Origin: Erysipelotrichaceae bacterium
Lineage (GTDB): Bacteria; Bacillota_I; Bacilli_A; Erysipelotrichales; Erysipelotrichaceae
Assembly (NCBI GenBank): GCA_022772735.1
Contig: JALEZD010000004.1
Span: 1 to 35,530, forward strand
Reading direction: 5' to 3'
DNA: 35,530 nt
Part shown: positions 10,444-35,530 of the stretch, one piece after another
Numbering within the stretch: the stretch's first letter is position 1
How the letters are laid out: every line of letters begins with the position of its first letter
The notes under the pieces: generated by a model
The model's input: only the letters and a program-made list of their open reading frames with translations
Databases searched by the model: none
Told to the model about the DNA's origin: nothing
Translations under genes and position numbers: made by a program

Positions 10444-11208
10444 ATGGGAAAAATTGAAGAATTATTTTTAGATATAAGTCCTCTAAAACAAAATCCTAGA
10501 AGTGTTTTTGTATATTTACCGACAAATTATGAAAAATCTAAAAAAAGATACCCTGTCATTTATATGTTTGATGGACAAAATTTATTTTTTGATGAAATGG
10601 CTACCTATGGTAAATCATGGGGTATGAAAGATTTTTTAGATAATTATAAAAAAGATATAATTGTTGTTGGAGTTGATTGTAATCATACTGGAAATAGTAG
10701 ACTAGATGAATATTCTCCCTTTCCATTTACAAGTACACATTATGAAGTTAAAGATGCACTAGGTGATATTAGTGCTAAGTGGTTTGTAGACTATTTAAAG
10801 CCTTATATAGACTCAAATTATAGAACACTAAAAGATAGAAAAAACACATGTATAGCTGGAAGTAGTATGGGTGGATTAATGTCATTATATTGCGTAATAA
10901 AATATAATCATATTTTTTCTAAAGCTGCATGCCTTTCACCAAGTTTATTATTTATGTTTGATGAAATGTTTAATTTAGTTAAAAATAGTACACTTGATAA
11001 AAACACAAAAATATATATGGATTTTGGAACAAGAGAATTAAGATACAAAAACAAACTTACTCACGCAATGCATATATTATTTGATTTAAATCATGAACTA
11101 CAAAATAAAGGAATAAATTGTTATCCAAATTTGATTCAACATGGAGAACATAATGAAGCCACATGGGAAAGAGTTATACCTAGATTTATGAAATACTTTT
11201 TTGAATAA
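10444..11208 (+). CDS. Alpha/beta hydrolase, esterase D/IroE-like
   Basis: A 254-aa cytosolic hydrolase of the putative-esterase fold. Visible marks are RSVFVYLPTNYE at the start, the YPVIYMFDGQNLF strand-loop, a nucleophile elbow GSSMGG, and the late HGEHNEATW block containing the catalytic histidine. These are the hallmarks of the esterase D/Fes/IroE group, which hydrolyse esters such as S-formylglutathione, feruloyl or siderophore esters. The actual substrate is unknown, and no siderophore genes lie nearby. Translation is probably coupled to plsY (four-base gap, no strong independent ribosome site). Confidence 0.82.
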   Translation: MGKIEELFLDISPLKQNPRSVFVYLPTNYEKSKKRYPVIYMFDGQNLFFDEMATYGKSWGMKDFLDNYKKDIIVVGVDCNHTGNSRLDEYSPFPFTSTHYEVKDALGDISAKWFVDYLKPYIDSNYRTLKDRKNTCIAGSSMGGLMSLYCVIKYNHIFSKAACLSPSLLFMFDEMFNLVKNSTLDKNTKIYMDFGTRELRYKNKLTHAMHILFDLNHELQNKGINCYPNLIQHGEHNEATWERVIPRFMKYFFE

Positions 11209-11210
11209 TA

Positions 11211-11241
11211 AAGGATTGATAAAATGTCAATCCTTTTTTTC
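11211..11241 (+). terminator. Terminator of plsY-esterase, overlapping the hflX 3' end
   Basis: Nine-bp perfect stem (AAGGATTGA / TCAATCCTT), seven-base loop, then a T7 run on the plus strand. The hflX stop codon lies in the right arm (11227-11229). The minus-strand side has only a weak T-rich tail. Confidence 0.82.
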
Positions 11242-12468
11242 ATATTTTGAAATTATGTTTTTTAAAGTTGAATCACAATTTAATTCTATGTGACAACCAT
11301 CTTCTTTGTTTTCTAAATCTAATATTTGATAATGATTTTTAAATTTATCCAATATATACATTTGATCATATGGTAAAACAATTTTCTCACTAAATTTTTT
11401 TGGATATAAAGTATTAATAACTTCCACTAACAACTCATTAATTCCTTCACCATTTAAACAAGAAATATATCTTAATCCATGTTCTTTTGTAACAATCTTA
11501 TCAACTTTGTTATAAACTTCAATAATTGGTATATCTTTTACACCTATTTTTTTTAGTGTAGAATATGTAATAGATTTTTGATTTTCATAATTTATATCAC
11601 TAGAATCAATTACATGGATTAAAACATCTGCCTCACTTGCAGCATTAAGTGTACTTTGAAATGCTTCAACTAGTTCATGAGGCAAATCTGATACAAATCC
11701 TACAGTATCAAAAAGTAAAAATTGTTCATTGTTATAACTTACATTTCTAACACTTGTATCTAGGGTGGCAAATAACATATCTTTTTGTAGAACAAACTTA
11801 TCTTTATTATTTAGCTTTAAAATATAATTCATTAAACTTGATTTACCCGCATTAGTATATCCAACAAGGGCAACACTTTTTAAATTAGAATTATTTCTTT
11901 TTTTTGCTCTTTCACTATTTTGTGTTTTTAAATCGTTTAATTCTCTTTTTAAATCACTAATTTGTCCTTCTATTTTCCTTCTAGCAATTTCAATTTTTGT
12001 TTCACCTGAGCCTCTGTTATGATCACTTCCACCACGCTGTCTTTCACTATCCATATCCATTAGATATAGTTTTGGCAAATCATATTTTAATCTAGCCATT
12101 TGTGTTTGAATTATTGCTTCTCTTGTTTTGGCTCTTATAGAAAAAATATCTAAAATTAAATTTGTTCTATCAATTATTTCAACTTCGCAAATTTTTGATA
12201 TTCTTGCGAGCATTGAGATACTTAAATTATTATAAAACACGACACAATCAACATTTAAACTCTCAACCATTTCTTTTAATTCTAATAGTTTTCCTTTTCT
12301 AAAGGCACTATTAGGATCAATTTTTCTACTTTTTTGAATACATCTTTCTACAACTTCTATATTACAAGCCTCACATAAATTAATTGTTTCTTCAATTAAC
12401 AAATTAAATTCATCATCTTTTTTATTTTCATTAATCCCGGCAATAATCGCCCTTTTATTCATCGTCAT
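11227..12468 (-). CDS. hflX: Ribosome-splitting GTPase HflX
   Basis: About 413 aa. HflX binds 50S and rescues stalled or heat-stressed ribosomes. The N-terminal HflX domain contains the SDHNRGSGETKIEIARRKI block, followed by a coiled coil and the G domain: GYTNAGKSSL (G1), DTVGFVSDLP (G3) and NKVD (G4). TTG at 12486 and ATG at 12462 are alternative starts. I chose ATG 12468 because a GGGAT sequence is suitably spaced before it, giving a 14-bp overlap with the preceding oxidoreductase gene. The pair is therefore translated in a coupled way, although no functional link between them is obvious. Confidence 0.94.
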   Translation of the reverse strand: MTMNKRAIIAGINENKKDDEFNLLIEETINLCEACNIEVVERCIQKSRKIDPNSAFRKGKLLELKEMVESLNVDCVVFYNNLSISMLARISKICEVEIIDRTNLILDIFSIRAKTREAIIQTQMARLKYDLPKLYLMDMDSERQRGGSDHNRGSGETKIEIARRKIEGQISDLKRELNDLKTQNSERAKKRNNSNLKSVALVGYTNAGKSSLMNYILKLNNKDKFVLQKDMLFATLDTSVRNVSYNNEQFLLFDTVGFVSDLPHELVEAFQSTLNAASEADVLIHVIDSSDINYENQKSITYSTLKKIGVKDIPIIEVYNKVDKIVTKEHGLRYISCLNGEGINELLVEVINTLYPKKFSEKIVLPYDQMYILDKFKNHYQILDLENKEDGCHIELNCDSTLKNIISKYEKKD

Positions 12469-13423
12469 AAATAATCCCACTTTCAATTCTTGCTTTTGTT
12501 AAAACTTCTAATATTTTCAAAGATAAATCATGTTTAACACATTTAGATTCTAAATTTTTTTCTTCAATATTTTGTATAAAATCATTTATTTGATATGCAA
12601 AACTACTTACTTCATCATTAGAAATTTTTATAATTTCATCTTTTTTAATTAAATTAATACCTTCCATTAAAGATATTTTATCAATTGTAATTACACCCTC
12701 TTCACCTTGTATTTCTGATTTAATAAAACTTGTAGATATTTTTGAACACATTAATACTGCGTCAAAATCTTTATATTTTAAAATCATTGTTGATAATCCA
12801 TCGACTCCTGTTTCAAGTTTAATTGATGTCGAAATAATATCACTTGGTTTATCAAAAAGTGCAATTAAAACAGATAACAAATAAACACCTAAATCCATAA
12901 GTGCACCATTAGCCAATTCTTTTTTAAATGTTGTTGGATTTTCTCCTTTTAAATATGCATCATATCTTGAAGAATATTTTTCAAACGAAAAAACAATTCT
13001 TCTAATTTTTCCTATTTTATGTAGATTATCTTTTAATTTTTTAAAATTTTCTGTATAAAGTGGAACAATTCCGTCATGTACATAAATATTTTTACTTTTT
13101 GCAAGTTCAAAAATATATTTTGCTTGTTTATCATTCACCATAAATGGTTTTTCACAAAATACATGATATCCATAATCAATCGCATATTTCACTATTTCAA
13201 AATGAGTTACATTTGGAGTCGCAACATAAACTGCATCAATTTTTTTATCATTAAACATTTCAAAATAATCTTTATATGCATAGTCAATATTATATTTATC
13301 TTTAAATTTCAAAGCATTTTCGTATTTTCCACTACAAACACCAACAACTTGACCTTTTGTATATTTAACAGCACTCATAAACATGTCTGATACAAAATTT
13401 GTACCAATAATTCCAATTCTCAT
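12455..13423 (-). CDS. Gfo/Idh/MocA-family NAD(P)-dependent oxidoreductase
   Basis: About 322 aa. N-terminal Rossmann domain starts MRIGIIGTNFVSD, with DAVYVATPNVTHFE and the family-defining CEKPF motif. The C-terminal alpha/beta domain has GALMDLGVYLLSVL, the usual tetramer/substrate-domain segment. Such enzymes oxidise or reduce sugars, inositols or related polyols; the substrate is not evident. ATG 13423 was chosen over GTG 13432 because GGGTGAT is correctly spaced before it and the Rossmann strand then begins at residue 2. It overlaps hflX and is separated from the surface cassette by that cassette's terminator. Confidence 0.9.
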   Translation of the reverse strand: MRIGIIGTNFVSDMFMSAVKYTKGQVVGVCSGKYENALKFKDKYNIDYAYKDYFEMFNDKKIDAVYVATPNVTHFEIVKYAIDYGYHVFCEKPFMVNDKQAKYIFELAKSKNIYVHDGIVPLYTENFKKLKDNLHKIGKIRRIVFSFEKYSSRYDAYLKGENPTTFKKELANGALMDLGVYLLSVLIALFDKPSDIISTSIKLETGVDGLSTMILKYKDFDAVLMCSKISTSFIKSEIQGEEGVITIDKISLMEGINLIKKDEIIKISNDEVSSFAYQINDFIQNIEEKNLESKCVKHDLSLKILEVLTKARIESGIIYDDE

Positions 13424-13459
13424 ATAAATCACCCAGTTAAATTATACTCTTTATCACAT

Positions 13460-21594: not shown

Positions 21595-22632
21595 TTAAAC
21601 CCTAATTTTACTTTTTAAAATAGGAAATAGTTTAGATAAAATAAAACTCAGTATAGGATAGGTTAACAAATCAAACTCTCCGATATAAACCTTAATAAGT
21701 GGATTAAAACTGGATTTAAATACTGTCAAACCATCATCAAGTGTACCAGATACACCTCCAAAACTAAAATATTCACAGTTTTGATTTTTTGCATACTCTA
21801 TTGCAGAAAAACGCAATGCATATGTAGAGTTATATTTTTTATATTCATCGTCATAACCAGAATAAAGTATCTCACATGTTTTTTTACATTTTACAAGCAA
21901 ACAAGAACTCACTACTTTATCATCCTTATATGCAGTTAATACACAAGAATCTTCCTTAAAACAGTTTAATAAATTTTCAAAATAAGTTTTATTTCTAAGA
22001 TTTATACTATGTCTACCTTCTGTATGATTAATCATTTCAACTAAATTATCAACATTATGATATTCATTAACTACAGTTATTCCTTTATTAAAACTTGATT
22101 TGATTTTTTTCATAGTTTTTGTTGGAATTGTATTTTCAAAATCATATGTAGGTATTTCAAGTTGAATTCGTGGTTGTATACTATCCTTCAACATCAATCC
22201 ATACCCACAATGTTTAATATTAAATTTCTTCAATAAATTAACAAGTTCATCACTTCTATAATTTTTAATTTCATCTTTTTTATCAAATGAAACTTCATTA
22301 ATAATATAATTTGGATCAAATTTTGTTAAAACAACCCTTTTACTTCTAAGTTGTTTTTTTAAATTGAAAAAGAAGAAACTTAACAATTCTTTATTTTCAA
22401 AATCAATTAATGGTCCTCTTGGAATATAGGCAAAGTTAAAGCCAAATGGTAACTTTCTTATCAAAATCATGCAAGCACAAATAAGCTTTTCGTTTTCCTT
22501 TACACCTACATACAGATTATCCCAATTACTTTTAGTTTTTGCCCAACTTGAACATTGAAAAATATTATTTAACTTATGATTCTTTGCGTATAAATCATAT
22601 TCATCTATATTTAATTTATCTATATATTTCAT
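21595..22632 (-). CDS. FemAB/FmhB-like peptidyltransferase (lipid II or surface-peptide branch)
   Basis: About 345 aa, with two GNAT-like halves. QCSSWAKTKSNWDNLYVGVK (42-61 from the longer start), then LPFGFNFAYIPRGPLID, are typical of FemX/FemAB proteins, which add amino acids to the peptidoglycan stem peptide using aminoacyl-tRNA. The second half carries EILYSGYDDEYKKYNSTYAL and FSFGGVSGTLDDGL, matching the FemAB 'hYAGT...K...GG' region. The C-terminus is hydrophobic. The longer GTG start (22680) lies in a terminator stem and is unlikely. ATG 22632 is the only plausible start and has no ribosome site; see findings. It is in an operon with the PAP2 gene. Confidence 0.85.
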   Translation of the reverse strand: MKYIDKLNIDEYDLYAKNHKLNNIFQCSSWAKTKSNWDNLYVGVKENEKLICACMILIRKLPFGFNFAYIPRGPLIDFENKELLSFFFFNLKKQLRSKRVVLTKFDPNYIINEVSFDKKDEIKNYRSDELVNLLKKFNIKHCGYGLMLKDSIQPRIQLEIPTYDFENTIPTKTMKKIKSSFNKGITVVNEYHNVDNLVEMINHTEGRHSINLRNKTYFENLLNCFKEDSCVLTAYKDDKVVSSCLLVKCKKTCEILYSGYDDEYKKYNSTYALRFSAIEYAKNQNCEYFSFGGVSGTLDDGLTVFKSSFNPLIKVYIGEFDLLTYPILSFILSKLFPILKSKIRV

Positions 22633-22639
22633 GTATTTA

Positions 22640-22645
22640 ATTATA
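22640..22645 (-). promoter_or_regulatory. -10 box of the FemAB-PAP2 operon, very close to the ATG
   Basis: TATAAT on minus with only seven bases to ATG 22632; no good -35 is seen. It implies a leaderless or nearly leaderless transcript. Confidence 0.5.
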
Positions 22646-22664
22646 ATACAAATATTAAATTTTA

Positions 22665-22695
22665 AATAAAAAAAGTTCACTTTAAAGTGAACTTT
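22665..22695 (-). terminator. Terminator of the FMN/FAD reductase gene
   Basis: Perfect 24-base palindrome (AAAGTTCAC TTTAAA GTGAACTTT, 22672-22695), then a T-run on minus. The arms resemble those of the terminator at 5286. Confidence 0.88.
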
Positions 22696-28802: not shown

Positions 28803-28833
28803 CTAAAAAAAAGAACTAGTTTTTTCTAGTTCT
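28803..28833 (-). terminator. Terminator of the opp operon
   Basis: Eight-bp stem (AGAACTAG / CTAGTTCT) with a six-base loop, then T8 on minus. The oppF stop codon is in the stem. Confidence 0.87.
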
Positions 28834-29706
28834 AACATAATGTCCTTCTTCAATTTCAACATATACATCAGTATCACTTACTTCTATATCTATTTTATTT
28901 TCAAAACCATTATCAAACATTTTTTTTGCTAAAGCAGGATCAGCAATTGGTGCAGTTGATAAAAGTTTTTTCGTATATTCATGTTGAGGATTTTCAAATA
29001 TTTGATTGGTTTTTGCAATTTCAACTATATATCCTTTATACATTACTGCAATTCTATCAGAAATGTATTTTACAACAGACAAATCATGAGAAATAAATAA
29101 ATATGTTAATTTAAACTTTTTTTGAATATCTACTAACAATTTTAAAATCTGAGCTTGGATAGAAACATCTAAAGCACTCGTAGGTTCATCACATAATATA
29201 AATTCAGGATTATTTATTATTGCTCGTGCAATGCCAATTCTTTGTCTTTGACCTCCACTAAATGCCTTAGGACGTTTATATTTTGAATCACCTTTTATTC
29301 CAACCAATTCTAAAATTTCTTCAGCTTTTTTTGTAGCTGTAGTATCATCCATATTTTTTAAAGGTTCTTTAACAATTTCAACAGCACTCATTCTAGGATT
29401 AAGTGCTGAATATGGATCTTGAAAAATAATTTGCATTTTTTCCAAATACTTTTTTTTATCTTTCTTACTTAATTTACTAATATCAACACCATTAATAAAA
29501 ACACTTCCACTATTTAAAGGTTCTAAATCTAATATACCTCTTCCTAAAGTAGTTTTTCCACTTCCGCTTTCTCCAACAAGTCCTAATGTCTCACCTTTAT
29601 TTAAAATAAGGTTAACATTATTAACTGCTATAACTTCGCTATATTTATTAAAACCTCTTTTTACAAATTTTTTATATGCATTTTCTATTTTAATAAACTC
29701 AGTCAT
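28816..29706 (-). CDS. oppF: Oligopeptide ABC transporter ATP-binding protein OppF
   Basis: About 296 aa. Walker A GESGSGKTT, Q-loop IFQDPYSALNPRM, signature FSGGQRQRIGIARA, Walker B FILCDEPTSALD and the H-loop are all present, with the OppF-type C-terminal extension ending in EEGHYVRTRKN. Energises peptide import with OppD. ATG 29706 was chosen because GGAGG is correctly spaced before it; the longer start lies inside oppD. The two genes overlap by eight bases. Last gene of the operon. Confidence 0.95.
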   Translation of the reverse strand: MTEFIKIENAYKKFVKRGFNKYSEVIAVNNVNLILNKGETLGLVGESGSGKTTLGRGILDLEPLNSGSVFINGVDISKLSKKDKKKYLEKMQIIFQDPYSALNPRMSAVEIVKEPLKNMDDTTATKKAEEILELVGIKGDSKYKRPKAFSGGQRQRIGIARAIINNPEFILCDEPTSALDVSIQAQILKLLVDIQKKFKLTYLFISHDLSVVKYISDRIAVMYKGYIVEIAKTNQIFENPQHEYTKKLLSTAPIADPALAKKMFDNGFENKIDIEVSDTDVYVEIEEGHYVRTRKN

Positions 29707-30565
29707 TTGAAACCTCCAACCAAACCTTATGTGTTTCACTAATATCAACACATTTAACATCAGCATCACTAAATGAATAATCCTCTGTTAAAATTTCATT
29801 ATTTTTATCGTCTAATTTTGCTGCATTTAACAATTGTTTTGTATATGGATGTTGAGGATTATAAAATATGTCTTCAGTAGTTCCTTTTTCAACAATTTTC
29901 CCATCGAACATAACTATTATTTCATCACTCATTCCTGCAACAACACCAAAATCATGTGTAACCAAAATAACCGTTAAATTATCATCTTTAGCAAGTTTTT
30001 TTATTGTATACAATATTTGTGCCTGTATTGTAACATCTAGAGCTGTTGTTGGTTCATCTGCAATTAACAATTTTGGTTTAATCACAAGAGCCATTGCTAT
30101 CATAACCCTTTGTCTCATTCCACCTGATAATTCATGTGGATATTGTTTTAATCTTTTATACGGTTCATTTATACCTACTTTTTCTAACTCTTTTGCTGCA
30201 ATATCAACTGCCTCTTTTTTTGAAACTTTTAAAAACCTCTGTATAACTTCGACCATATGATATTCAATAGTTCTTAAAGGATTAAGTGATGTCATTGGAT
30301 CTTGAAATATCATTGAAATAGGTAATATATCGTTTTTATTTACATCTTTATTATCAAATAAAAAGCTAGTCCATGTTGCTTCAACCTTATCTGGTAAAAT
30401 ATTCATAATGCTTTTCATACTAATACTTTTACCGCTACCACTTTCTCCAACAATACCTAATACCTTACCTTTAGATACTGCTAAGTCAATTCCTTTTACA
30501 AGCACTTTATTTTGTGGAGTATGAGTTACATACAATTTTTCTAATTTTAATAAATTTTCACTCAT
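29699..30565 (-). CDS. oppD: Oligopeptide ABC transporter ATP-binding protein OppD
   Basis: 288 aa. Walker A GESGSGKS, Q-loop IFQDPMTSLNPLRTIEYHMV, signature LSGGMRQRVMIAMAL and Walker B LLIADEPTTALDVTIQAQIL are present. The C-terminal extension with NPQHPYTKQLLNA is usual, but the cysteine-rich iron-sulfur motif seen in some OppD is not apparent (a single Cys near the end). AAAGGAGG precedes the ATG. It follows oppC by one base. Confidence 0.95.
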   Translation of the reverse strand: MSENLLKLEKLYVTHTPQNKVLVKGIDLAVSKGKVLGIVGESGSGKSISMKSIMNILPDKVEATWTSFLFDNKDVNKNDILPISMIFQDPMTSLNPLRTIEYHMVEVIQRFLKVSKKEAVDIAAKELEKVGINEPYKRLKQYPHELSGGMRQRVMIAMALVIKPKLLIADEPTTALDVTIQAQILYTIKKLAKDDNLTVILVTHDFGVVAGMSDEIIVMFDGKIVEKGTTEDIFYNPQHPYTKQLLNAAKLDDKNNEILTEDYSFSDADVKCVDISETHKVWLEVSND

Positions 30566-30566
30566 T

Positions 30567-31397
30567 TTAATCCTCCTTTAAAAGTAATTCCTGAATCATA
30601 TTACCAATATTATTAAAAGAATATATTATAAGCAATATAACAGCACCTGGAATAATAGCCATATAAGGTGCACTTTGCAATTTACTTTGTGCATTTTGTA
30701 ATAAACTACCTAGTGATGTCATAGGTTGTTGAATACCCAATCCAAGAAAACTTAATGCAGATTCAGTCATTATAGCGCTAGATATACTTGTTGTAGCAGC
30801 AACAATTAAAACAGGTAAAACTGCAGGTAAAATATGTTTAATAATTATTTTTGAATTACTAATATTAACAAATTTTGCATAAACCACATATTCTCTTTGT
30901 TTAATAGATAAGGTTTCTCCTCTTATCATTCTTGCAATAGACATCCACGAAAATCCACCAATAACTATTATAATTGTCGTAAGACCAGGTTTTAAAAATA
31001 CACTCAAAACTATTACTAATACTAACCAAGGAATAGAAGATAATACATCAACAAATCTCATAAGTATATTATCAATAACTCCACCATAATAACCAGAAAT
31101 TAAACCAATAATTGTTCCTATAAATGTTGAAGTAATCATTGCTAAAAAGCCAACTAAAAGTGAAATTCTAAGTCCATATAAAACTCTAATGAAATAATCC
31201 CTGCCAAGTTCATCTGTACCGAAAATATGATTTAAACTTGGTCCTTTAGACATGTTTGTAACATCATATTTTGAAATATCAATTGGTAAATAAGGTGCAA
31301 TAATTGCCAAAAGAATAAAAAACAATAAAACAATTACAGAAAAAGTATAAACTTTTGATGAAAGTATATTTTTAAATATCTTATTTATTCCCTTCAT
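30567..31397 (-). CDS. oppC: Oligopeptide ABC transporter permease OppC
   Basis: 276 aa, six membrane segments. N-terminal OppC domain (LAIIAPYLPID ... GPSLNHIFGTDELGRDYFIR) and the EAA-type loop (AKFVNISNSKIIIKHILPAV) that docks on the ATPase. Closely packed between oppB and oppD, with AAAGGA before its ATG. Confidence 0.95.
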   Translation of the reverse strand: MKGINKIFKNILSSKVYTFSVIVLLFFILLAIIAPYLPIDISKYDVTNMSKGPSLNHIFGTDELGRDYFIRVLYGLRISLLVGFLAMITSTFIGTIIGLISGYYGGVIDNILMRFVDVLSSIPWLVLVIVLSVFLKPGLTTIIIVIGGFSWMSIARMIRGETLSIKQREYVVYAKFVNISNSKIIIKHILPAVLPVLIVAATTSISSAIMTESALSFLGLGIQQPMTSLGSLLQNAQSKLQSAPYMAIIPGAVILLIIYSFNNIGNMIQELLLKED

Positions 31398-31411: not shown

Positions 31412-32359
31412 CTATTGTCTTATTCTTGGATCTACAATTGAATATAAAATATCAGCCAACAAATTCCCTAAAATAACAAGTGTTGCAGAAAAAAGCATAA
31501 CAGCCATAATAACTGGATAATCAAGCGATCTTGTAGCAGTCATCAAATAAGGTCCAACTCCTGGCCACGAAAATATACTTTCTGTAATTAATGCTCCCGT
31601 AACAAGCATAGGTAGTGCCATACCAATTTGAGTAACAATAGGTATCATTACATTCCTTCCGATATGTTTAACAAATATTTCTGTTTTTGATGCATGGAAT
31701 GATTTTTGTACCATTACATAATCTTCACTTATTTGCTCAATTGCACTTGCTCTAATATACCTTGTTAATCTAGGAAAAAATGCCCATGTCAATGTTAAAT
31801 AAGGCATAACAAAGTGTGATAAAAAATCTAAAAAGTCATTTTCTTTACCAATTGTATGCATACCTATAATTGGAAACAATTTAAAATTATATCCAAATAA
31901 ATATATTATTAACATTGCAAACCAAAATGTTGGAGTTGCAATCCCAATAGATACTATTCCATCTACAATTTTATCAATAAGCTTTCCTTTATTTGCTGCA
32001 GAAATCAAACCCAAAATTACTGCCAAAAAAAGTGCTGTTATATAAGAAGGAATAACTAATTTCATTGTTGCAATTATTCTTGTAGAAAGCTCTTTTGAAA
32101 TACTAGCTTGTGTTATTAGTGAATATCCTAAATCACTTTTAAAAATATTACTTAACCATGTCCAATACTGAACAATAAATGGATCATCTAATCTGTATTT
32201 TAACCTTAGTAACTCAATTTGTTCCAAAGTCATATTTGGAGTAATCATTGTATCTAAAACATCAAAAGGAGCTATATATATCATTAAAAATACAACAAAT
32301 GAAATAACAAGAAGTAAAGGGATTGCCTGTAAAACCCTTTTTATAATATATTTTCCCAT
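31412..32359 (-). CDS. oppB: Oligopeptide ABC transporter permease OppB
   Basis: About 315 aa, six membrane segments. It begins MGKYIIKRVLQAIPLLLVIS, typical of OppB/DppB, and contains RYIRASAIEQISEDYVMVQK and the final TLVILGNLLADILYSIVDPR. ATG 32359 was chosen over the longer start because a GGGGG tract lies 10 bases before it and the family start matches. It is separated from oppA by 64 bp containing a strong hairpin. Confidence 0.95.
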   Translation of the reverse strand: MGKYIIKRVLQAIPLLLVISFVVFLMIYIAPFDVLDTMITPNMTLEQIELLRLKYRLDDPFIVQYWTWLSNIFKSDLGYSLITQASISKELSTRIIATMKLVIPSYITALFLAVILGLISAANKGKLIDKIVDGIVSIGIATPTFWFAMLIIYLFGYNFKLFPIIGMHTIGKENDFLDFLSHFVMPYLTLTWAFFPRLTRYIRASAIEQISEDYVMVQKSFHASKTEIFVKHIGRNVMIPIVTQIGMALPMLVTGALITESIFSWPGVGPYLMTATRSLDYPVIMAVMLFSATLVILGNLLADILYSIVDPRIRQ

Positions 32360-32414: not shown

Positions 32415-32423
32415 AATACTAAT

Positions 32424-34001
32424 TTATTTTATTTTTAACTTAGACATATCCTTCATTGTATAAATCGGAATTAATCCAGCTGCATCAATATTTTCTATTC
32501 TATTATTTACTGCAAGAACTTTCTTATTATCTACAATAGGATAAATAAATGCTTGTTTTGAAAGTTCATTTTGTAAATTGTTATATATTTCTTTTCTCTT
32601 TGTTTCATCTAATTCTACAGCACCATCTTCAAACAGTTTATCTGTAACATCATTTTTATATTGGAAATAGTTTGCTCTTGCACCTGTTGTAAATAATGCT
32701 TTATATTGGTCAGGATCATTACCCATAATATATCCTCCTAAAAACATATTATAGAATGTTGAACCTTCTTTTCTTAATTCTGCAAATATAGCTGAACCTT
32801 CTCCACCTGCAAGCTCAACTGTAATTCCAATTTGTGATAATTGTTGTTGAATAAGAGTCGCTTGTAATGTTTGTGCTGTATCACTCGCATTAAATGCTAA
32901 ATTCAATGTTAATCCGCTAACATTTGCTTCTGCGAGTAATTCTTTTGCTTTTTCAATATTTTGTTCATATTTTTCTACATCACTTGTGTAAAAAGCATTA
33001 TTTGGAGGAAGTATAGAATAAGGTAATTGATAGTATTCTTCGCTAATATATGCAGCAGTATTCATTTCCACTTTATTTAAGGCATATAAAATTGCTTGTC
33101 TTACTTTAACATCTTTTAACGCTTCAGTTGCTGTATTTAATCCTAAATATCCAACCCTATTTTCACTATAAGCATATGTATTAATTTTACTTGAATCCAA
33201 ATCAGCAATTTCAGAAGGTAATACAAATGAAGCATCAACTTCACCTGTTTGTAATGCAAGTTTTCTTGTATCAGCATTGTTTATTATTCTAAAAATTACA
33301 TTTTTAATATTTGCAATTCCATCATAATAATTTTCGTTTGCTTCAAATGCAATGTATTCTCCTCTTTTGTATTCTTTTAATTTGTATGGTCCACTTCCAA
33401 CTGGAGATATTTCTAACTCATTAACTGAAAAATCTGCAACTGTACTATAAACGTGTTCTGGCATAATATAAGTTAATGTAGCAACATTGTTAATAGCAGC
33501 CGCACTAACACTTGGAAGTTTAAAATTTACAGTTAAATCGTCAACCTTTTCAAATTCAATTTGATTATCATTAATCCACAAATTCGAAAAATTACCATTC
33601 TCTTTTTTTGCTTTTGTATTATAAGTAAATACAACATCATCAGCATCTAATGATTCTCCATCAGACCATTTTAAGTTTTCTTTTAATTTAACAGTTACTG
33701 TTAAACCATCTTCCGAAACAGAAACACTGTCCGCAAGAACATTCTCATAAGTTCCATCACCATTAACTCTAACAAGTGGAGAATAAATCATATTTACATA
33801 TGTTAATCCCCATCTATCACTTGAAGTAATTGGATTTGTTGAAGTTGGATCTCCATCAATTGCATAAGTAAATGTATCGCTATTTAATGATGAAGTTGTT
33901 TGTGTTGTTTCAGTATTTGCTGTAGTTTTATTTGCTCCACATGCTGTTAAAAATACTGATAATGCTGCAAATGCTGCAACTAAATTTATCTTTTTAATCA
34001 T
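32424..34001 (-). CDS. oppA: Oligopeptide-binding lipoprotein OppA (SBP family 5)
   Basis: 525 aa. Lipobox SVFLTAC, then a Thr/Ser linker and the extracellular SBP_bac_5 fold: FTYAIDGDPTSTNPITSSD, LKENLKWSDGESLDADDVVF and VRQAILYALNKVEM are standard. It captures peptides for the OppBCDF importer; peptide preference cannot be read. AAGGAG lies before the ATG. It is the first gene of an A-B-C-D-F operon behind a T-box leader, so expression of the whole importer should depend on uncharged tRNA. Confidence 0.95.
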   Translation of the reverse strand: MIKKINLVAAFAALSVFLTACGANKTTANTETTQTTSSLNSDTFTYAIDGDPTSTNPITSSDRWGLTYVNMIYSPLVRVNGDGTYENVLADSVSVSEDGLTVTVKLKENLKWSDGESLDADDVVFTYNTKAKKENGNFSNLWINDNQIEFEKVDDLTVNFKLPSVSAAAINNVATLTYIMPEHVYSTVADFSVNELEISPVGSGPYKLKEYKRGEYIAFEANENYYDGIANIKNVIFRIINNADTRKLALQTGEVDASFVLPSEIADLDSSKINTYAYSENRVGYLGLNTATEALKDVKVRQAILYALNKVEMNTAAYISEEYYQLPYSILPPNNAFYTSDVEKYEQNIEKAKELLAEANVSGLTLNLAFNASDTAQTLQATLIQQQLSQIGITVELAGGEGSAIFAELRKEGSTFYNMFLGGYIMGNDPDQYKALFTTGARANYFQYKNDVTDKLFEDGAVELDETKRKEIYNNLQNELSKQAFIYPIVDNKKVLAVNNRIENIDAAGLIPIYTMKDMSKLKIK

Positions 34002-34120: not shown

Positions 34121-34154
34121 AAAAAAACTTTCATCCTATTACAAAGGACGAAAG
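34121..34154 (-). terminator. Regulated terminator of the T-box leader
   Basis: Nine-bp stem CTTTCGTCC / GGATGAAAG (one G:U), nine-base loop, followed by T7 on minus. It competes with the antiterminator formed by the T-box sequence just upstream. Confidence 0.9.
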
Positions 34155-34383
34155 CTATACTTCGTGGTTCCACCTTAATTCAAAATAGTTTCACAACTAT
34201 TTCCTCATCGAGTACTATCATACTCTATCACTATAACGGGTGAAACCGTCGTATTCTAATGAACATTCACTTCGATACGCAACTACAAGGTCGCATTCAT
34301 TAGCTTTCATTCTCTTACTTCCACCATATGTAAGATTCTCTTTAGAACTTCCACTAACCCTTTTACCTTTTCAACATCTTTGT
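34121..34383 (-). promoter_or_regulatory. T-box riboswitch, tRNA-Cys type, controlling oppABCDF
   Basis: A complete T-box leader on the minus strand. Stem I has the AGTGGA S-turn (34350-34355), an apical hairpin TCTTAC / GTAAGA (34330-34335 and 34313-34318) with the ATATGGTGGAA loop, and a specifier loop reading GAA-TGC-G (TGC at 34293-34295, followed by the conserved purine). Further hairpins follow, including a stem II-like CGTAT/ATACG and a stem III AATAGTT/AACTATT. The T-box motif GGTGGAACCACG is at 34163-34174. Its TGGA would pair with a tRNA ending UCCA, that is discriminator U73, which bacterial tRNA-Cys has and tRNA-Met lacks. Specifier and discriminator therefore agree on Cys. When tRNA-Cys is uncharged, the terminator at 34121-34154 is avoided and opp is expressed. 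Confidence 0.9.
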
Positions 34384-34386
34384 ATG

Positions 34387-34417
34387 ATATTATTACAAAA
34401 CAGTGCTTCGATGTCAA
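34387..34417 (-). promoter_or_regulatory. Promoter of the T-box/opp transcript
   Basis: Perfect -35 TTGACA (34412-34417), then a 16-bp spacer to TAATAA (34390-34395) or an overlapping TAATAT (34387-34392) on minus. Confidence 0.75.
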
Positions 34418-35331: not shown

Positions 35332-35530
35332 TTATTCAATTAATTTCATTTCTTCTAAATATAATTGTTGTGATGTTCTTACATTAAATATTTTTCTAGG
35401 ATAATTATTCATAAAATCTTCTATCTTTTTAAAATACTCTTCAGGATAACTATCAAAACAAGTAAATTTAGGTATGTATCTTCTTATAAATCTATTATTT
35501 ACTTCATTGCTTCCTCTTTCCCATGATGAA
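35332..35530 (-). mobile_element. IS30-family transposase, C-terminal part (5' end outside window)
   Basis: A frame enters from the right edge and runs 65 codons to TAA at 35332-35334. It begins SSWERGSNEVNNRFIRRYIP, matching the IS30 core SSWERGxNExxNGLIRxYxPK around the catalytic glutamate, and continues FKKIEDFMNNYPRKIFN as in IS30 members. The usual NGL is NRF here. No disruption is visible in this part. The element end and target site are not identifiable in the AT-rich flank. Confidence 0.85.

Follow-up and report, generated by a model that had tools for sequence, protein, structure and literature searches.

In the 35,530-nt window, i.e. the whole stretch of DNA that was analysed, an oppABCDF operon is located on the minus strand (34001-28816). 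It encodes an SBP_bac_5 binding protein, two BPD_transp_1 permeases and two ABC ATPases with oligo_HPY domains (Table 1). Between oppA and oppB lies a 10-pair hairpin (32415-32392, minus strand) without a strong T-run, which may determine how much binding protein is made relative to permease. A cmscan search detected a single T-box in the window, a full-length match (1-219) to RF00230 above the gathering threshold of 93 bits. The initial annotation had placed a T-box at 34121-34417 in front of oppABCDF. This was borne out by the model match and, for the genes on the same strand downstream, by open reading frames and domain matches; the proposed span rightly covers promoter and terminator as well. 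The leader promoter (34417-34389) would set the transcription start right at Stem I. The leader is preceded by a tRNA cluster (35064-34470). Because this cluster ends in its own terminator-like hairpin (34458-34443), the leader represents a separate unit. The contig end next to the tRNA cluster (35344-35530, minus strand) resembles, by eye, the C-terminal part of an IS30-type transposase.

Table 1. Features of the opp locus and of the former cysteine synthesis sites in the window.
Feature	Position	Strand	Basis or remark
Sigma-70-type promoter of leader	34389..34417	-	TTGACA-17 nt-AATAAT + extended TG, 11/12 matches
T-box leader RNA	34141..34383	-	RF00230, 106.4 bits, E 9.4e-23
Part of Stem I with 5-bp closing helix	34287..34369	-	Fold; AAGGU (34369-34365)/ACCUU (34291-34287)
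Specifier TGC (Cys), favoured register	34293..34295	-	After GAA (34298-34296), before purine G34292
Antiterminator with T-box bulge	34142..34176	-	Sequence and RF00230 alignment; TGGA at 34172-34169
Intrinsic terminator	34126..34156	-	12 pairs + T-run; -14.9 kcal/mol, z -5.5
oppA, family 5 substrate-binding lipoprotein	32424..34001	-	Closest solved relative Listeria CtaP (Lmo0135, 5ISU)
oppB, permease	31412..32359	-	Likely ATG start; mechanical ORF begins at 32416
oppC, permease	30567..31397	-	Domain matches
oppD, ATPase	29699..30565	-	Domain matches
oppF, ATPase	28816..29769	-	Domain matches
Terminator-like hairpin closing the opp operon, right after oppF	28812..28833	-	Hairpin prediction
Gap between esterase and hflX genes, cysK site of both genus sisters	11209..11226		18 nt, terminator-like repeat inside
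Overlap of hflX and oxidoreductase ORFs, cysE site of both genus sisters	12455..12486		Synteny; genes abut directly

The best PDB match of OppA is Lmo0135 (5ISU, E 6.7e-95). Lmo0135 is CtaP, which was first annotated as an oligopeptide-binding protein and has since been linked to high-affinity cysteine transport; low cysteine does not support the growth of mutants in ctaP and in its two permease genes (PMC10269559). CtaP is thus the nearest characterised relative of OppA. OppA scored under the cut-off of every named NCBIfam Opp/Dpp/Nik/Gsi equivalog, the best being Opp4A with 189 vs 650 bits. The homology suggests that opp encodes a CtaP-like oligopeptide/cysteine importer and, by analogy to CtaP, its substrate may be cysteine itself instead of peptides in general. 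Gamma-glutamyl transpeptidase was not found in three genomes of the genus, and therefore glutathione as a substrate is neither favoured nor disfavoured.

The leader contains an antiterminator with a UGGN bulge (AAGGTGGAACC...CTTTCGTCCTTTG) that competes with the intrinsic terminator. The two structures are mutually exclusive, and CUUUCGUCC is common to both. The host genome carries 17 T-boxes, among which the score of the opp leader is typical. In Stem I of this leader the AGTA box is lost and the kink-turn GAG reads TAG, so that some decay is possible; AGTA is also missing from several of the 16 other host T-boxes. Furthermore, a promoter-like site (34071-34043, 10/12 matches) lies 3' of the terminator and could bypass T-box control. 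Taken together with the altered Stem I bases, this site would fit a decaying T-box without regulatory function, opp being transcribed from 34071-34043. We consider this very unlikely: the terminator, antiterminator, T-box bulge and Stem II region all remain intact, as does the upstream promoter, and promoter-like sites are about as frequent as expected by chance (5 found vs 3.0 +/- 1.8 in shuffles). Between terminator and oppA, an 11-codon ORF (MKDDCIYGHYL, 34103-34068, minus strand) with a ribosome-site-like sequence contains one Cys codon. It may be a leader peptide or the remnant of an earlier downstream gene.

Some of the other elements of the host genome deserve mention in their own right. 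In the argS T-box (L007, G000:C20:3706-4011; specifier CGA), a tRNA-Arg(ACG) gene lies between the terminator and argS. By this gene order, the T-box may govern both the synthetase and the production of its own effector tRNA. A T-box with the Arg codon CGC (L005, G000:C23:75989-76190) precedes a gene for an amino-acid binding protein, and one with the Trp codon TGG (L013, G000:C26:7552-7793) a gene resembling trpX. Close to the metN T-box, on its upstream side, a contig end carries two CRISPR-DR22 repeats (L009 positions 39-140, G000:C6).

The initial annotation had read the specifier as TGC at 34295-34293 and the T-box sequence as TGGA, and both are present as described, TGGA at 34172-34169. 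In the RF00230 alignment, however, the codon columns hold not TGC but GCG (Ala; 34294-34292), which overlaps TGC and lies one base apart. We calibrated the specifier position on the 17 host T-boxes, most of which are found before synthetase genes or before transporters whose specificity is evident. In nearly all of them the codon ends 9 nt before the conserved GAG, and the same rule gives GCG in the opp leader (GAATGCGACCTTGTAG). Nearly all T-boxes of the family share this spacing relative to the GAG equivalent; the family spacing counts took the codon nearest to 9 nt, which makes this statistic slightly circular, whereas the statistic on the T-box base is not. Read in this way, the leader would sense tRNA-Ala.

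Structural and comparative arguments favour TGC. In the own metN T-box (L009), the nearest paralogue, the helix below the specifier loop reads AAGG/CCUU, vs AAGGU/ACCUU in the opp leader. The added pair U34365-A34291 has a probability of 0.975 in the fold, and UGC and the following G are unpaired. The shift of TGC by one nucleotide from the model column is explained by this extra U-A pair, which lengthens the helix. TGC-G therefore restores the codon-purine-helix pattern of the family, while GCG leaves no spacer before the helix. A stacking purine 3' of the specifier is conserved, and the specifier makes three Watson-Crick pairs and nearly always ends in C, the "C rule" (PMC7583486). TGC fits both this rule and the host tRNA-Cys(GCA), which is present in the genome. 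GCG breaks the rule; the one Ala tRNA identified carries the anticodon UGC together with A73, so that GCG would need a wobble pair and TGGA would face A73. The host's own alaS T-box, moreover, combines GCT with TGGT. We therefore regard an alanine specificity as highly improbable.

Further support for TGC is provided by the cysS T-box of the same family (L207), which reads GAA-TGC-A-[CCTTT] and carries TGGA; its GAA-TGC is identical to that of the opp leader. A scan by pattern for Cys T-boxes in 392 genomes gave one match, the cysS leader of G054. Across the 315 genomes of the order in which OppA was sought, no orthologue of the opp T-box was found that would allow co-conservation of TGC and TGGA to be followed. 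Cys T-boxes of Clostridium perfringens, located at cysK-cysE, cysP1, cysP2 and ubiG, likewise have a TGC specifier together with GTGGAACC (PMC2940859).

Among 31 host tRNAs typed, U73 (a UCCA end) was found only in Cys and Gly; the Ala and Met tRNAs have A73, which would not pair with TGGA. TGGA had been put forward as an independent indicator of cysteine. The U73 of the host tRNA-Cys agrees with this, but the argument was overstated: 20/22 His T-boxes of the family also use TGGA although the host tRNA-His has C73, and TGGA alone is thus weaker, non-specific evidence. In these His T-boxes (CAC; L133, L143, L147, L160, L165 and others), position N of UGGN pairs non-canonically, judged by the host C73. 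Histidine itself was discarded as the sensed amino acid, as the specifier loop of the opp leader contains no CAC. The same applies to glycine, for which the loop contains no codon; the earlier remark that Gly shares U73 and that TGC is no Gly codon was correct. The amino acid sensed is very probably cysteine, the best-supported candidate. The assignment made by the initial annotation is upheld on wider grounds, namely helix register, the cysS T-box, the C rule, the discriminator base and the homology to CtaP. Another codon in the specifier position had been named as the observation that would speak against it; the Rfam alignment does give such a codon, GCG, but these same grounds overturn it.

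We consider it highly likely that a transcriptional, tRNA-Cys-specific T-box controls the CtaP-like oppABCDF importer. From the leader sequence we infer the following response to tRNA. When cysteine is short, uncharged tRNA-Cys(GCA) would bind the leader at two sites, pairing with the specifier TGC and, through its UCCA end, with the TGGA bulge, so that the antiterminator forms. The terminator (34156-34126) would be avoided and oppABCDF transcribed. When cysteine is plentiful, charged tRNA-Cys could not stabilise the antiterminator and transcription would stop.

The relatives of OppA with 60-67% identity are found in Enterococcus, Gemella and Streptococcus, beside methionine genes. In the Enterococcus gallinarum/casseliflavus relatives (L018, L021), homologous opp genes (OppA 64-67% identical) are part of a metA-metB-metQ-oppABCDF-osmC row. 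This row also lies downstream of a T-box, which differs in being methionine-specific (ATG, TGGT) and in standing before metA. In Gemella, a Met T-box and a gene with a methionine-synthase domain are located upstream of opp; in S. suis the opp neighbours are metE/metF and an NlpA lipoprotein gene. Because its relatives adjoin methionine genes, this opp type is tied to sulfur amino acids by evidence other than the RNA. A motif search in 80 relatives revealed no T-box directly before oppA, the Enterococcus and Gemella Met T-boxes lying further upstream. With the nearest opp homologues near Met T-boxes, methionine could be the transported need.

The opp T-box itself is related to Met T-boxes. It shares 76% identity with the host's own metN T-box, and in the T-box tree it groups with this and with the Met T-boxes of metB/metN in the sister genome G066 (SH-aLRT 92, not starred). 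This descent, together with the Enterococcus gene row, would suit a leader that in effect still responds to methionine, via the overlapping ATG (34296-34294), and governs the import of Met-containing peptides as in Enterococcus. We rate this as the least probable reading. ATG would overlap GAA and leave two nucleotides before the helix, all three host Met(CAT) tRNAs have A73, a mismatch to TGGA, and TGGT is present in 38/38 family Met T-boxes counted. Rather, the opp T-box seems to have arisen by duplication of one of the Met T-boxes in the genus and re-specification to cysteine. Duplication and specificity change of T-boxes before transporters have been proposed by Wels et al. (PMC2494555); the terms 'peptide' and 'opp' are absent from the text of that 2008 paper.

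The cysteine metabolism of the host was examined in the assembly, which is 97.5% complete. The genome has no match to the CysK family and no real CysE (best 37 bits vs a cut-off of 211). A full-length PLP enzyme of Cys/Met metabolism (transsulfuration, metB/metC-type) was likewise not found in it, the best score being 51 bits vs 428 in sister G066. Both genus sisters (L224, L225) possess cysK and cysE, flanking hflX. The flanking genes are kept in the window (esterase 10444-11208, hflX 11227-12486, oxidoreductase 12455-13432). The loss is no assembly gap, because it is seen inside the contig between intact flanking genes. By synteny, both genes have been lost from the host, which appears to rely on imported cysteine; cysteine synthesis appears to have been swapped for import on demand.

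The arrangement of T-box and opp was observed in one genome only. No OppA of this similarity was found in the rest of the 315 genomes of the order, the next best having about 31% identity. In the OppA tree the protein forms the outermost branch beside sequences of Gemella, Lactobacillales and Actinomycetota (support 81). This is consistent with a lateral acquisition of the opp operon. In sister G017 a homologue of the femX gene that lies at 21595-22680 in the window comes immediately after the tRNA cluster, and in sister G066 a phage-type integrase (L202 659-1774) is located at the same cluster. The site is therefore variable, and the integrase of G066 would mark it as an integration hotspot. 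We find it moderately probable that one lineage exchanged de novo cysteine synthesis for regulated import. By this account, cysK and cysE were excised at two places 1 kb apart, an acquired CtaP-like opp was inserted by the tRNA cluster ~22 kb away, and a duplicated Met T-box was turned to cysteine by a one-base register shift, a new U-A pair and a change from TGGT to TGGA.

Known systems share single traits with this locus. The C. perfringens T-boxes control cysteine supply including transporters (PMC2940859), as proposed here, and a plasmid-borne transporter T-box of L. paracasei (PMC6004538) has a TGC specifier and also serves cysteine supply. Their targets are biosynthesis, NhaC-type symporters or a polar amino acid ABC transporter, whereas here the target is a CtaP-like opp in a host without cysK/cysE. 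Unlike them, the opp leader appears to derive from Met T-boxes, with a shifted register. A T-box before opp, instead of its usual targets, had been presented as exceptional; it is indeed present here, but the Enterococcus row is one precedent and a His T-box of Lactobacillus parabuchneri another. The latter likewise lies on an acquired island, where it precedes the gene of a peptide-type substrate-binding protein, but is histidine-specific and part of a histidine decarboxylase island (PMC5313534). In Listeria monocytogenes, CtaP-CtpP1-CtpP2 (lmo0135-0137) comprises a related family 5 binding protein and two permeases, needed in low cysteine by a cysteine auxotroph (PMC10269559). It differs in that the passages of PMC10269559 on the adjacent cluster name no ATPase genes, and the sources consulted report no T-box there.

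The mechanism itself is already known; what appears new is the regulated system and its evolutionary setting. The register of the opp leader illustrates that fixed-column specifier predictors can err by one base if an additional pair lengthens the helix below the specifier loop. Cysteine supply would also provide a functional label for a poorly assigned opp family, whose Enterococcus, Gemella and Streptococcus members adjoin methionine genes. Riboswitch re-specification would have taken place on the same contig from which the biosynthetic genes vanished, and its combination with importer gain and syntenic cysK/cysE loss raises the locus above an ordinary T-box in interest. The locus would thus show how a horizontally acquired transporter can become part of host physiology when a resident riboswitch is copied and given a new specificity.
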